The notes under the pieces are model-generated. The model did not search any database. It was given only the letters and a program-made list of their open reading frames with translations, and had not been told where the DNA came from. A stretch of DNA of 64,000 nucleotides, taken from positions 1 to 64,000 of the forward strand of contig JAEUHH010000011.1 of assembly GCA_016795505.1 (NCBI GenBank). Reading direction: 5' to 3'. Source of the stretch: Verrucomicrobiales bacterium (GTDB lineage: Bacteria > Verrucomicrobiota > Verrucomicrobiia > Verrucomicrobiales > DEV007). Shown piece after piece: positions 7,679 to 55,423 of this stretch (position 1 is its first letter; the number at the start of each line of letters is the position of its first letter). The translations under genes and the position numbers were made by a program.

Positions 7679-7841
7679 CGTCTGCCAAAAAGCCATCCTG
7701 TTTCAGTCGTTCGCCCGTTGGCGCCTTCACGCCACGAGCCGGTTTGTGTCCAGCGCCGCCCGCCCGTTCGCCGGCAGCTTTTCACACTCTACGCGCCGCC
7801 GCCGCCCCGTCTTTCAAGCCCTCCAGCCGCGGATCGATTTC

Positions 7842-7906
7842 GATCAGACAGGGTTGTCTCTCCGATCCAACAGGGTCTCATCGCCGGACAGACCCTCTTT
7901 GATCGG
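7842..7906. repeat. 22-bp GATC palindrome array, locus 1 (three units)
   Basis: Units begin at 7842, 7864 and 7886, exactly 22 bases apart. The middle unit GATCCAACAGGGTCTCATCG is the clearest; the third has the inverted centre (ACCCT). The array lies in the divergent gap between the phosphoesterase gene and the permease gene, 79 bases before the permease start. It belongs to a family with five other loci at 17625, 30798, 35761, 43484 and 54905. Confidence 0.85.
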
Positions 7907-16634: not shown

Positions 16635-18539
16635 ATGAGCGATTCCCTCCCCATCATCGGCATTGACCTCGGCACCACCCACTCGCTCGTCGGTGTGGTG
16701 GATGCCGGGTTTCCCATTTTGCTGGCCGACTCGGGCGGCGACCGCCTGCTGCCGTCGGTCGTCCACTATCAGCCTGACGGATCGGCCCCACTCACCGGCC
16801 AACCCGCCGCCCGGATGCGGGCACGTCACCCCAGCCGCACCATCGGCTCGGTGAAGCGTCTCATGGGCCGGCGATTCGATGAACTCGCACCTGACGACAC
16901 GGCTGATCTCGGTTACCGGGTCGTGGCCAGCCCCTCCGGCCGGGCCGCCATCGATCCCGGCGCCGGGGATAACCGCCAGATTTCTCCCGAGGAGGTCTCC
17001 TCAGAGATCCTGCGAGCACTGAAAGACCGGGCCGAGGAGGCGCTCGAACTCGCCCCCGGATCGCTGACCCGCGCCGTGATCACGGTTCCGGCTTACTTCA
17101 ATGACGGACAGCGCAACGCCACCAAACGGGCCGGCGAACTGGCCGGTCTAACCGTCGAGCGCATCCTCAACGAACCGACCGCCGCCGCCCTCGCCTACGG
17201 TCTCGACAAACTCGACGAGCGCAGCCGCGTCGCCGTCTATGATCTCGGCGGCGGCACCTTCGATCTTTCCATCCTTGAACTGCGCGACGGCGTCTTCCAG
17301 GTCATCGCCACCGACGGCGACACCCGACTCGGAGGTGACGACCTCGACGCAGCCCTGGCCGACTGGCTGCGGGAGAAAATGGACCTGCCCGACCCGCTCG
17401 ATGCCATTCAGCAGACCACCCTGCTGGCCGAGTCCCGTCGGGCAAAGGAGGCTCTCAGCACTGTCGCCTCGGTCACGGTGTCCCTGCCCTTTTTCGACGG
17501 CCCGCGGAGCTACTCGACCGAAGTCAGCCGCGAGGAATTCGAAGCGATCGCCCGGCCATGGATCGACCGGACCCGCGCCCACTGCCTGCGCGCGCTGGGC
17601 GCGGCGGGGTGCCTCGCGGTTTCCGATCCAACCCTGTTTGATCGGCGATCCAACCCTGTTTCATCGGAAATCACCGGCATCGACCGGGTCATCCTCGTCG
17701 GCGGCAGCACGCGCATCCCGCTGGTGCGGCAGATCGTCGCAGAGATTTTCGGCCGGGAGCCGGATGTCTCGCAGCATCCCGACGAGGCGGTCGCGCTCGG
17801 CGCCGCCATTCAGGCCGGCATCCTCTGCGGCCGGGTGCGGCAGGTGCTGCTGCTCGATGTGACGCCGCTGTCGCTCGGCATCGAGACTTTCGGTGGCTTG
17901 ATGAATGTCATCATCCCGCGCAATACGACGATCCCGGCAAAAGCCGGTGAGATGTTCACCAATGCGATCGCCGATCAGGCTTCCATGCTGGTCCGGGTGC
18001 TTCAGGGCGAGCGGGAGATGGCCCGCGACAACTGGGAGCTGGGGCGCATCACCCTTGACTTCCCCCCCGGCCCGAAAGGCAGCGCGCGCGTCGGCGTGCA
18101 ATTTTCCATCGATGCCGACGGCATTCTCACCGTGCTGGCTCGCGACACCGCCACCCAGACGGACCGCGTGCTGGAGATCCGGGATTCGGCGGTGGATGTG
18201 GACGACGCACGGGTGGAGGAGATGATCGCGGAGTCGGTCGATCATGCGTTTGCCGACATGAACGAGCGGGTCTGGACGGAGGCCCGCCTGAAAAGCGAGG
18301 AATTGCTCCCAGCCGTGGAACTGGCCCTGGCCCAGGCGGGCGATGCCCTGACGCCAGAGGAAATGGCCGCAATCAAATCCGCTGCCACAGCAGTGCGCGA
18401 ACTGCTGGCCGATCCCGGCCTGCCGGCCCAGCGCCTGCGGATGGCGAATCAGTCCCTCGATGACGCCACGGAGACGCTGGCCGCCATTCTGGTGGAGCGG
18501 GCGCTCGAAAGAGCCCTCGGGGCCGGATTGGGGGCGTAA
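16635..18539 (+). CDS. Hsp70-family chaperone (HscA/DnaK-like) with repeat-encoded insertion
   Basis: 634 residues from the ATG at 16635 (upstream frame is not conserved). The nucleotide-binding domain is complete: [68 protein letters not shown]. The linker and substrate domain start at [14 protein letters not shown], and the lid is shorter than DnaK's and lacks the usual acidic tail, so it is closer to HscA/HscC size. Just before VILVGGSTR there is an extra segment of about 18 residues (about 331-348, [15 protein letters not shown] and flanks) encoded by two 22-bp GATC palindrome units at 17625-17667. No isc or dnaJ/grpE genes are adjacent. Confidence 0.9.
17625..17667. repeat. 22-bp GATC palindrome array, locus 2 (two units, inside hsp70)
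   Basis: Units GATCCAACCCTGTTTGATCG at 17625 and GATCCAACCCTGTTTCATCG at 17647, 22 bases apart, lie in frame inside the Hsp70 gene. They encode most of an insertion absent from DnaK/HscA at the loop before VILVGGSTR. The asymmetric centre ACCCTGT is the reverse orientation of the ACAGGGT form at 43484. Confidence 0.9.
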
Positions 18540-30421: not shown

Positions 30422-30814
30422 ATGGATTCTGCCCCGTCATCCGAGCCTCTCTACTACGCCTGCCAGCGCTGCGCCAACTGCTGCCGCTGGCCGGGGGAGG
30501 TTCCGGTGACGGAGGCCGAGATCGCCCGCCTCGCCGACCATCTCGGCCTCGACGAGGCGGAATTCATCGACCGCTACACCGCCCTGCGCCTCAACCGCAC
30601 CGGCCTGACCCTGATCGACCACCCCGACGGCAGTTGCATTTTTCTCGAGGGCAATCACTGCCTCGTCAATCCGGTAAAGCCCGCCCAATGCGCCGGCTTT
30701 CCGAACCGGTGGAATTTCCCCGGCTGGCGGGACATCTGCGAAGCCATCCCCATCTACGGCGGCGGCGAATCCCCTGCGGCTGGCGGGCCGGAATCCCGAT
30801 CAGACCCTGTTTGA
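30422..30814 (+). CDS. YkgJ-family cysteine cluster protein
   Basis: 130 residues. The N-terminal cluster YACQRCANCCRWPG and the later Cys residues in GSCIFLEGNHCLVNPVKPAQC and RDIC fit the UPF0153/YkgJ family, which binds zinc or an Fe-S cluster through a conserved Cys8-type set. The function is unknown. The last residues (SRSDPV) and the stop codon are contributed by the repeat array at 30798, so the native C terminus may have been replaced. It converges with the deformylase gene. Confidence 0.82.
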   Translation: MDSAPSSEPLYYACQRCANCCRWPGEVPVTEAEIARLADHLGLDEAEFIDRYTALRLNRTGLTLIDHPDGSCIFLEGNHCLVNPVKPAQCAGFPNRWNFPGWRDICEAIPIYGGGESPAAGGPESRSDPV

Positions 30815-30861
30815 TCGCCGATCAGACCCTGTTTGATCGCCGATCAGACCCTGTCTCATCG
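30798..30861. repeat. 22-bp GATC palindrome array, locus 3 (three units)
   Basis: Three tandem units beginning at 30798, 30820 and 30842; the first two are GATCAGACCCTGTTTGATCG and the third ends in CTCATCG. Each can fold into an 8-bp stem with a 3-base loop. The TGA of the YkgJ-like gene (30812-30814) and the TGA of the convergent deformylase gene (30856-30858, minus strand) are both inside the array. It is well placed to act as a bidirectional transcription stop. Confidence 0.92.
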
Positions 30862-31425
30862 CGACCGGTTCGCCGCTTCCCACTCGCGCTGCATCTCGCG
30901 CAGCCATTTCTGGATGCTCAGCTTCTTGGCCCGGCTCATCCGGTCGATGAACAGCTTTCCGTTCAGGTGATCGACCTCGTGCTGGATGGCGCGGGCCAGC
31001 AGGCCGTCGCTCTCCACCTCCAGGGTCTCGCCCGTGAGCAACTCCAGCCGGGCACGGATCTCGGCCGGTCGTGTGATCTCGCCTCGCAGGTCGGGAAATG
31101 ACAGGCAACCCTCCACTTCGGTCTCGGTTTGGCGGCTTCCCTCGACTTCGGGATTGATGAAAATCAGCGGCGAGATCTCGGCGAGGCTGCATTCCACGCC
31201 GTTCACCCGCAGATAGGTCACGCAATCCTCATCGTGCGACACATCGACCACCGCAAGTTGCAGGGACTGGCCCACTTGGGGAGCGGCGAGTCCGACGCCA
31301 TGGGCATCGCGCATCGTCTCGACCATGTCATCGGCGAGTTGGCGGATCTCGGGCGTCACGGAGGTCACCCGGTCGCCTTTGCGGCGCAGCACGGGATCTC
31401 CGAATAGAACGATGGGGCGGATCAT
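30856..31425 (-). CDS. def: Peptide deformylase
   Basis: 189 residues with all three catalytic motifs: GVGLAAPQVG, EGCLSFPDL (Cys metal ligand) and QHEVDHLNGKLF (His-Glu-His). It removes the formyl group from nascent proteins in the cytoplasm. The C terminus (about residues 170-189, LSIQKWLREMQREWEAANRSR) is helical; the stop codon lies inside the palindrome array. No fmt gene is adjacent. Upstream, 54 bases away, ends the ExbD-type gene on the same strand. Confidence 0.95.
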   Translation of the reverse strand: MIRPIVLFGDPVLRRKGDRVTSVTPEIRQLADDMVETMRDAHGVGLAAPQVGQSLQLAVVDVSHDEDCVTYLRVNGVECSLAEISPLIFINPEVEGSRQTETEVEGCLSFPDLRGEITRPAEIRARLELLTGETLEVESDGLLARAIQHEVDHLNGKLFIDRMSRAKKLSIQKWLREMQREWEAANRSR

Positions 31426-35694: not shown

Positions 35695-35760
35695 AAATCC
35701 CCAGCAAATCAACCGGCCACTTGGCGCATTTCGCTTGGGGAGAAATGGCCGAACGATTCC

Positions 35761-35802
35761 GATGACACCCTGTCTGATCGGCGATCCAACAGGGTCTCAT
35801 CG
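35761..35802. repeat. 22-bp GATC palindrome array, locus 4 (two units)
   Basis: Units at 35761 (GATGACACCCTGTCTGATCG) and 35783 (GATCCAACAGGGTCTCATCG), 22 bases apart, with opposite centre orientations. The pair lies between the end of the ccsA gene and the rex gene, both read on the minus strand. Confidence 0.85.
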
Positions 35803-43305: not shown

Positions 43306-43483
43306 GGAGCGGGGATAAAAGCCGGAGATCCGCAGACTACAACGAAACTTTCGCCCCTGGCGATGGCTTTCTCGCGGAAACCCGTGGCTGCCCGGGCGCC
43401 ATCAGTCCGCCTCGGCGAGGTCAGCACTTGGGGTAAAGCCCAAGCGACTCCCCAGTGTGGCCCTTGGCGTCCCGACCGATTCC

Positions 43484-43525
43484 GATCAAACAGGGTTCGA
43501 TCGGAGATCCAACAGGGTCTGATCG
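43484..43525. repeat. 22-bp GATC palindrome array, locus 5 (two units)
   Basis: Units GATCAAACAGGGTTCGATCG at 43484 and GATCCAACAGGGTCTGATCG at 43506, 22 bases apart. The array ends seven bases from the stop of the entericidin-like gene, in the gap between it and the sugar permease gene, both read on the minus strand. Confidence 0.9.
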
Positions 43526-53586: not shown

Positions 53587-53634
<48 letters not shown>

Positions 53635-53665
53635 ACGGTCTATCGGTTCACATCCGATCCCGCCC

Positions 53666-54800
53666 GATTCCCCATTCGCGTCATTCGTTTCATTCCTTTC
53701 CATTCGCGTTCAATCATCCGTGCCTGGCCCCATTTCGCCCCATTCGCATTCATCCCCTCCAACCACCCCACGGCCTCGTACCACACCGTCGAAAAAAGCG
53801 CCAACGGCGCGCCCGCATACCAGCCCAGAGCAACGCTCTGGGTAACCGCCCACCCCTCTCAAGACGCCCTGTAGGGGCGTCGCATCCCCTGCTCTACCCG
53901 GCATCGCATTCGCCAGCCAGTGATTGCGGCGCCCCTTCAGGGCGCTTCCCGTGTTCTGGACCCGGCTCCCAGAGCGTTGCTCTGGGCTGGTATGCGGCGG
54001 GCCTTCAGCCCGATTTCTCGCGGATCATTCCCCCCATCACGCCCACTCGATTCCCCATTCGCGTCATTCGTTTCATTCCTTTCCATTCGCGTTCAATCAT
54101 CCGTGCCTGGCCCCATTCCATCCCATTCCATCCCATTCGCATACATCCCCTCCAACCACTCCACGGCCTCGTACCGCACCGTCGAGGAAAAGCGCCAACG
54201 GCGCGCCCGCATACCAGCCCAGAGCAACGCTCTGGGTAACCGCCCACCCCTCTCAAGACGCCCTGTAGGGTCGTCGCATCCCCTGCCCTACCCGGCATCG
54301 CATTCGCCAGCCAGTGATTGCGGCGCCCCTTCAGGGCGCTTCCCATGTTCTGGACCCGGTTCCCAGAGCGTTGCTCTGGGCTGGTATGCGCCGGGCCTTC
54401 AGCCCGATTTCTCGCGGATCATTCCCCCCATCACGCCCACTCGATTCCCCATTCGCGTCATTCGTTTCATTCCTTTCCATTCGCGTTCAATCATCCGTGC
54501 CTGGCCCCATTTCGCCCCCATTCGCAATCATCCCCTCCAACCACCCCACGGCCTCGCACCGCACCGTCGAGGAAAAGCGCTAACGGCGCGCCCGCATACC
54601 AGCCCAGAGCAACGCTCTGGGTAACCGCCCCCCCTCAAGACGCCCTGTAGGGGCGTCGCATCCCCTGCCCTGCCCGGCATCGCATTCGCCAGCCAGTGAT
54701 TGCGGCGCCCCTTCAGGGCGCTTCCCGTGTTCGGGACCCGGTTCCCAGAGCGTTGCTCTGGGCTGGTATGCGGCGGGCCTTCAGCCCGCTTCATGGCGGA
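53666..54800. repeat. Three tandem copies of a 385-395-bp repeat with internal inverted arms
   Basis: Copies start at 53666, 54049 and 54443, each opening with GATTCCCCATTCGCGTCATT and closing near GGGCCTTCAGCCCG. Each copy carries the inverted pair CATACCAGCCCAGAGCAACG (e.g. 53816) and CGTTGCTCTGGGCTGGTATG (ending 53994) about 150 bases apart, and small hairpins such as GACGCCCTGTAGGGGCGTC. Copies are highly similar but not identical, suggesting recent amplification of a palindromic intergenic element. The third copy is truncated. Confidence 0.85.
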
Positions 54801-54812
54801 CTCACTCCCCTG

Positions 54813-54915
54813 TCGTTCCAACCCGTTCCAACCCGTTCCAACCCGTTCCAACCCGTTCCAACCCGATCAGACCCGTTCCAACCCGTTCCAACCCGTTCCA
54901 ACCCGTTCCAACCCG
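54813..54915. repeat. 10-bp tandem repeat (CGTTCCAACC)n
   Basis: About ten copies of CGTTCCAACC; one unit is changed to CGATCAGACC, which resembles half of the GATC palindrome. The array runs straight into palindrome locus 6, so the two families may have recombined here. Confidence 0.9.
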
Positions 54916-54968
54916 GTCTGATCTCCGATCAAAGAGGGTCTGATCGGAGAGGAGACAGGGTTCCATCA
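54905..54968. repeat. 22-bp GATC palindrome array, locus 6 (three units)
   Basis: Units start at 54905, 54927 and 54949, again 22 bases apart. The central one, GATCAAAGAGGGTCTGATCG, is the best; the first is half-merged with the 10-bp array and the third (GAGGAGACAGGGTTCCATCA) is degenerate. Confidence 0.75.
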
Positions 54969-55074
54969 GCCCGACCGCCCGCCGGGAGGCTCCGTAGGAG
55001 GGCGGAAACGGCACCTTTGGCACAATTACCTTAAATTCAATCGCTTGCATCTCACCCACCCCCTTCGACGGCCA

Positions 55075-55348
55075 CTCCTCCAGCGACAAAAGGGACTCCT
55101 CCAGCGACAAAAGGGACTCCTCCAACGACAAAAGGACCTCCTCCAACGACAAAAGTAGGTCCTCCAACGACAAAAGGACCTCCTCCAGCGACAAACGGAC
55201 CTCCTCCAACGACAAAAGGAGGCTCCTCCAACGACAAACGGAGCCCCTCCAACGACAAACGGACCTCCTCCAGCGACAAAGGGACCTCCTCCAACGACAA
55301 AAGGACCTCCTCCAGCAACAAACGGAGCCCCTCCAACGACAAACGGAC
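55075..55348. repeat. 21-bp tandem repeat array (13 units)
   Basis: Thirteen units of CTCCTCCARCGACAAAAGGA-like sequence, 21 bases each, with one indel near 55220. Because 21 is a multiple of three, the minus strand reads as SLEEVLL heptads and the plus strand as SSNDKRT heptads, but the indel breaks each frame and no start fits. Best treated as non-coding satellite-like DNA or the remnant of a coiled-coil coding repeat. Confidence 0.85.
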
Positions 55349-55423
55349 CCAATTTTCAGCCCATTTTCAGCCCATTTCGCCTCTCACCGCCAGCTTCCCT
55401 GCGAGCGATCCCCTTCGAGTGGC

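Follow-up and report, generated by a model that had tools for sequence, protein, structure and literature searches.

The array between the ykgJ-like gene and def

The window, a stretch of 64,000 nucleotides, carries a pair of convergent genes, the first encoding a protein of 130 residues that we take, following the first-pass annotation, to be YkgJ-like and the second presumably def (peptide deformylase). Their 3' ends meet in an array of three dyad units, with a single spacer base between neighbouring units (Table 1). Tandem Repeats Finder places this array at 30796-30862 with a period of 22, 3.0 copies and 95% matches, and it is the top-scoring 22-bp array that the program reports in the window. 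The first-pass annotation had put the stop codons of both genes inside the three units, and the coordinates bear this out. It had also derived the last six residues of the YkgJ-like protein, SRSDPV, from the repeat; this holds for RSDPV, whose codons are repeat sequence from unit 1, but of the serine codon TCC (30794-30796) the last base alone falls within the Tandem Repeats Finder unit. On the opposite strand the last codon of def, CGA (Arg), is repeat sequence from unit 3.

Table 1. Positions of the arrays and of the genes flanking the central array, numbered from the start of the window
Feature	Position	Strand	Remarks
Array, 3 units	7841-7905		inside a called ORF
Array, 2 units	17624-17666		inside the DnaK/Hsp70-like gene 16635-18539
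YkgJ-like gene, 130 aa	30422-30814	+	TGA 30812-30814 within unit 1
Array, 3 dyad units of 21 bp, 22-bp spacing	30797-30861	.	core ACCCTGT on + in all three
Units 1 and 2	30797-30817, 30819-30839		identical, CGATCAGACCCTGTTTGATCG
Unit 3	30841-30861		CGATCAGACCCTGTCTCATCG, two changes relative to units 1 and 2
Core heptamer, unit 1	30804-30810	-	ACCCTGT on +, ACAGGGT on -
Core heptamers, units 2 and 3	30826-30832, 30848-30854
def, 189 aa	30856-31425	-	TGA 30856-30858 within unit 3
Array, 2 units	35760-35802		intergenic, tandem genes
Array, 2 units	43483-43525		intergenic, tandem genes
Array, 3 units	54904-54968		outer units degenerate; abuts CGTTCCAACC minisatellite

The array at 54904 grows out of the CGTTCCAACC run. 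Unrelated tandem repeats are clustered around it, at positions 53587-55377: an 8-bp GGGCAGAC repeated 6 times, a 394-bp unit repeated 3 times, CGTTCCAACC repeated 10 times and a 21-bp CTCCTCCAACGACAAAAGGAC repeated 13 times. The contig end (1-136) consists of a perfect TCCAAGA heptamer repeat in 19.4 copies.

Genomic abundance and distribution

With up to 3 mismatches allowed, the 21-mer has 639 matches in the 6.55-Mb source genome (G000) and 0 in the reversed control, so the array between the ykgJ-like gene and def is not a chance occurrence. All of the genomes compared here are draft assemblies, those of the three congeners (G001, G002 and G003) corresponding to MAGs, and the family was sampled in 864 kb of G000 together with listed coordinates elsewhere. 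The 864-kb sample holds 223 units in 106 groups, including 66 pairs and 21 triples; extrapolation from the 104 to 106 groups in this sample gives some 700-800 arrays per genome, or one per ~9 kb. An array consists of 2-4 units, each a dyad around ACAGGGT/ACCCTGT. A search among known RNA families gave no significant match.

To follow the family in other genomes we have employed a reduced element, two cores 22 bp apart (ACMSKGT-N15-ACMSKGT). Exact pairs of this kind number 699 in G000 (1 in the control), 321, 321 and 161 in the three congeners; they reach 952 in a second genus of the same taxonomic family and 640 in a third, the controls giving 0-5 across genomes. Elsewhere in the class, in the other genera, families and orders that were sampled, the counts are close to background. 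The source genome also has 17 Y1_Tnp matches; none of them is consistently flanked by arrays, and some lie at contig ends.

Organization of the repeat unit

In every genome sampled a core-to-core distance of 22 bp dominates: G000 has 114 core pairs at this distance and, multiples of 22 aside, 1-2 at any other, and the corresponding numbers at 22 bp are 91 in G035, 81 in G080 and 55 in G003. The genus g11, to which G013 and G035 belong, also uses 32-33 bp, or about three helical turns, as its next most common spacing. At three G013 loci (L105-L107) some arrays consist of two unit pairs 32 bp apart (21+11), besides the 22-bp spacing. The orientation of the core is free, since units occur either way round and in all combinations in the 864-kb sample.

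The core and the 22-bp spacing are thus constant across three genera, whereas the arms differ by lineage: CGATC/GATCG in G000, where the consensus flanks are TTTC-array-GAAA, GACCC/GGGTC-like in G003, TGT/ACA beside the core in G080, and CGAAC/GTTCG in G035. Complementary arm pairs show no excess over column shuffles, for units or for whole elements, in any of four genomes (z between -4.4 and +1.8); positions 4/16, for example, are paired in 88 cases against 102 expected, and in G035 arm pairs are significantly fewer than expected (z -4.4). Units do not resemble each other more within an array than between arrays (8.98 against 9.04 of 14 positions), and whole arrays resemble each other as much as independent draws from the motif do (43.6 against 43.0 of 51). 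Copies, and units within one array, thus share no similarity beyond the motif itself, and neither a tandem duplication of units within arrays nor a recent copying between loci is supported. The lack of excess arm pairing and the lack of likeness beyond the motif are both easier to reconcile with independent half-sites of a DNA-binding protein than with a stem formed by RNA or a single strand, or with an element that was copied recently.

Conservation of array positions between species

All three congeners retain the convergent ykgJ-def pair; the two genes are separated by 16 bp in G001, 28 bp in G002 and 178 bp in G003, and none of these gaps contains an array of the family. By this comparison the array is specific to the source species, and to this extent the suggestion that it landed between the two genes is supported, as a lineage-specific presence. 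It had further been proposed that the array replaced the ends of both genes, and here the two differ. The tail of the YkgJ-like protein after CEAIP has 20 residues, against 9-14 in the congeners, and for this gene the proposal stands. With respect to def, the number of residues after the conserved REMQ(R/Q)(E/D)W is equal in all four genomes, so that its end has not been displaced. The alignments thus point to a ykgJ-like gene that gained a new tail and a def that terminates where its orthologs do. In G002 a family array lies 51 bp before the start of def, with none after its end, which is best read as a local relocation.

Other sites have a longer history. The array in the DnaK-like gene matches an insertion of 17-18 residues relative to E. 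coli DnaK, and G001, G002 and G003 all have a two-core array at this site, with other arms and with the first core inverted relative to G000. A contig from an outgroup, Verrucomicrobiales bacterium SS_bin_30, also has an array there, with CGAA/TTCG arms and a protein of native length; G013 has no array at this site. On the SS_bin_30 contig (JABDJT010000508.1; L225, 5014-9272) we noted three "+-" arrays in 10.8 kb. The source genome shares a site in a DnaE-like gene with G001 and G002, and it shares an intergenic site with G002 and G003. At the DnaK-like and DnaE-like sites and at C9:95080, the position is shared across species while the arms have been rewritten to the lineage consensus and the core orientation flipped. 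It follows that positions can outlast species splits, with their arms rewritten. None of the three congeners has an array at the moaA site or at the ykgJ-def site (the names moaA and DnaE come from reading the translations and not from database results), and therefore other sites come and go.

Spacing along the chromosome

The distances between arrays of at least 2 units were measured on six contigs of G000. The 84 intervals have a mean of 9.27 kb, a coefficient of variation (CV) of 0.51 and a minimum of 3.27 kb, so that none is shorter than 3 kb, against ~22 expected. Three null models (uniform placement, intergenic placement by length and intergenic placement by gap) were each simulated 3000 times, and no simulation matched the data. 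An independent set based on exact-pair coordinates (C2, the end of C3, and C5-C8) gave 26 intervals with a CV of 0.38 and again a minimum of 3.27 kb; the absence of intervals below 3 kb in this set has a probability of about 2e-4. The tendency is visible in smaller samples from other genomes: G003 has 1 interval below 3 kb (1.25 kb) against 6-9 expected, and in G035, where arrays are twice as dense, 2-7 intervals fall below 2 kb against 10-19 expected; the spacing sample of G080 was too small for such an analysis. A looser pair search in G000 yielded four pairs closer than 3 kb against 30 expected, and the closest two, 75 bp apart, probably belong to a single compound array. In the samples examined, then, arrays almost never lie closer than ~3 kb to each other.

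Gene context and stop codons

According to our own simple codon-usage gene calls, on which the context rests, 76 of 92 arrays (82%) are intergenic, with 39 between tandem, 20 between convergent and 17 between divergent genes; the remaining 16 of 92 lie inside called genes, and a few of these could be native coding sequence that happens to resemble the motif. Per junction, arrays are as frequent between convergent genes (20 of 120, 0.167) as between divergent ones (17 of 115, 0.148; Fisher p 0.72), and convergent junctions exceed tandem ones (0.091; p 0.03). No T-tract follows the stems, the G000 consensus having GAAA there; the sequence 3' of the ykgJ-def array is CGACCGGTTC, and a terminator scan of the region gave 1 match against 0.9 expected, which is the chance level. 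The ykgJ-def array itself is predicted to fold strongly as RNA on both strands (z -6.7 and -3.6), because its units are nearly identical, and this copy, if transcribed, may thus have a local effect on 3' ends. The first-pass idea that it was selected as a bidirectional terminator nevertheless finds no support in these data, and the family corrects that reading of the site: convergent and divergent junctions are equal, 16 of 92 arrays lie in genes, there is no T-tract, the scan is at chance and the arms lack compensatory pairing.

As to the stop codons, TGA occurs in 98 of 207 units on the + strand and in 99 of 207 on the - strand. In the 864-kb sample, arrays are concentrated in short gaps, of the 79 gene ends that face an array 13 lie inside it, and a second convergent pair (C3:66015-66057) has both of its stops inside an array. 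In view of the TGA counts, the crowding and the overlaps with gene ends, the repeat-supplied stops at ykgJ-def look like a by-product of the position of the array and of the frequency of TGA in its units. Nor are they new in kind, since REPs that provide stop codons, and REPs within genes, have been described (PMC3733652). We also considered a stop-codon cassette, which could close all frames as 22 mod 3 = 1, and rejected it: most arrays keep at least 1 frame open per strand.

Possible functions

Our preferred reading, to which we would give not quite an even chance, is that the arrays are phased operators of a putative lineage-specific DNA-binding factor, acting chromosome-wide and probably in an architectural role. 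As operators should, the dyads lie at whole helical turns (22 bp, and 32-33 bp in g11) and their half-sites vary independently. Each 21-bp unit (two 9-bp arms and a 3-bp centre) would bind a dimer of one lineage-specific protein; neighbouring dimers would be aligned along one face of the helix, 22 bp being exactly two helical turns; the sites would be distributed over gaps and over gene loops that tolerate them, at about one per 9 kb; and the arrays would probably anchor loops or domains in the organisation of the nucleoid or of its supercoils. Protein binding, the dimeric state and the use in chromosome organisation are what we infer from this pattern. It is also possible, though we lean against it, that the some 700-800 arrays, at roughly regular distances of 3-15 kb, form a chromosome-wide ruler with a putative co-evolving binder and domains of ~9 kb. 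A ParB/Noc paralog was sought as the binder and discarded, none being specific to array-bearing genomes. Literature searches on regularly spaced nucleoid sites, and on such repeats in Verrucomicrobia, returned nothing that matches. If the operator reading is correct, phased and evenly spaced sites that hold their positions while the arms drift by lineage would offer an unusual way to read the domains of a bacterial chromosome from sequence. The arrays could also represent a novel type of genome signal, with none like it for the phylum in the literature searched; the family predicts a dimeric binder confined to three genera and contact domains of ~9 kb.

An unlikely, but the best surviving, alternative is a mobile palindrome of the REP/BIME/RPE kind, non-autonomous, moved by a transposase in trans and inserting between genes or, in frame, into them, whose target immunity could also yield the even spacing. 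Hundreds of dispersed palindromic copies, 82% of them intergenic and the gene-internal ones with open frames, would fit such an element, as would the species-specific presence at ykgJ-def and moaA, the 17 Y1_Tnp matches and the precedent of REPs that supply stop codons and occur in genes (PMC3733652). However, 1 of 14 Y1_Tnp genes has an array within 1 kb, which is about chance, the per-genome consensus lacks the GTAG/CGTC tag, the stems do not covary, and copies and same-array units are alike in the motif alone. Moreover, the arms change together while the positions stay fixed, and divergent junctions are not avoided. The covariation test, the tags, the RAYT flanks and the gene context have led us to reject a hairpin/REP reading.

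Rather improbable, in our estimate, is a DNA uptake signal, recognised by a receptor and built up through biased uptake and recombination, with dialects in different lineages. The arrays do have a conserved core with dialects at hundreds of sites, they are evenly spaced, and positions are kept while the dialect shifts; for DNA uptake sequences an even spacing is on record (PMC1939737), and lineage dialects are known for DUS and USS (PMC3630211). But each known signal is one short word, non-palindromic and often located in genes, whereas our arrays are 2-4 dyads phased at 22 bp and mostly intergenic.

Finally, selection between convergent genes for a bidirectional terminator, or for an element that stabilises mRNA 3' ends, is very improbable and was dropped as a role for the family: the strong predicted fold of the ykgJ-def copy, the closeness of many arrays to stops and the excess over tandem junctions speak for it, but the junction rates, the gene-internal copies, the lack of T-tract and of compensatory pairing (with the significant deficit in G035) and the chance-level scan speak against it, and it does not predict the even spacing.

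Comparison with known systems

The matS sites of MatP and the Noc sites are palindromes scattered over a chromosome and bound by a dimeric protein, numbering tens per macrodomain or region. The arrays are similarly palindromic and dispersed over the chromosome, but they are some 700-800 evenly spaced multi-site arrays, and no extra ParB-type gene was found with them. The ends of Tn7 and Mu carry tandem 22-bp sites for transposase binding, and these elements have target immunity, which would space their copies. They share with the arrays several putative protein sites of ~22 bp in a row; unlike them, the arrays are not at the ends of a cargo element and their units are dyads.

The REP/BIME repeats, including the Rickettsia RPE, are likewise short grouped palindromes in hundreds of copies, mostly intergenic, some in genes and some supplying stops (PMC3733652). 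In contrast to these, the arrays have no GTAG/CGTC tag, RAYT flanks or stem covariation; they are strictly phased at 22 bp, free in core orientation and evenly spaced, with lineage arms rewritten in place, and they use divergent junctions as often as convergent ones, whereas REP/BIME repeats occupy tandem and convergent gaps and avoid divergent ones. The DUS of the Neisseriaceae and the USS of the Pasteurellaceae share with the arrays the hundreds of copies, the even spacing and a core with dialects (PMC1939737, PMC3630211), but they are single short non-palindromic words, and the arrays are phased dyads that lie mostly between genes.
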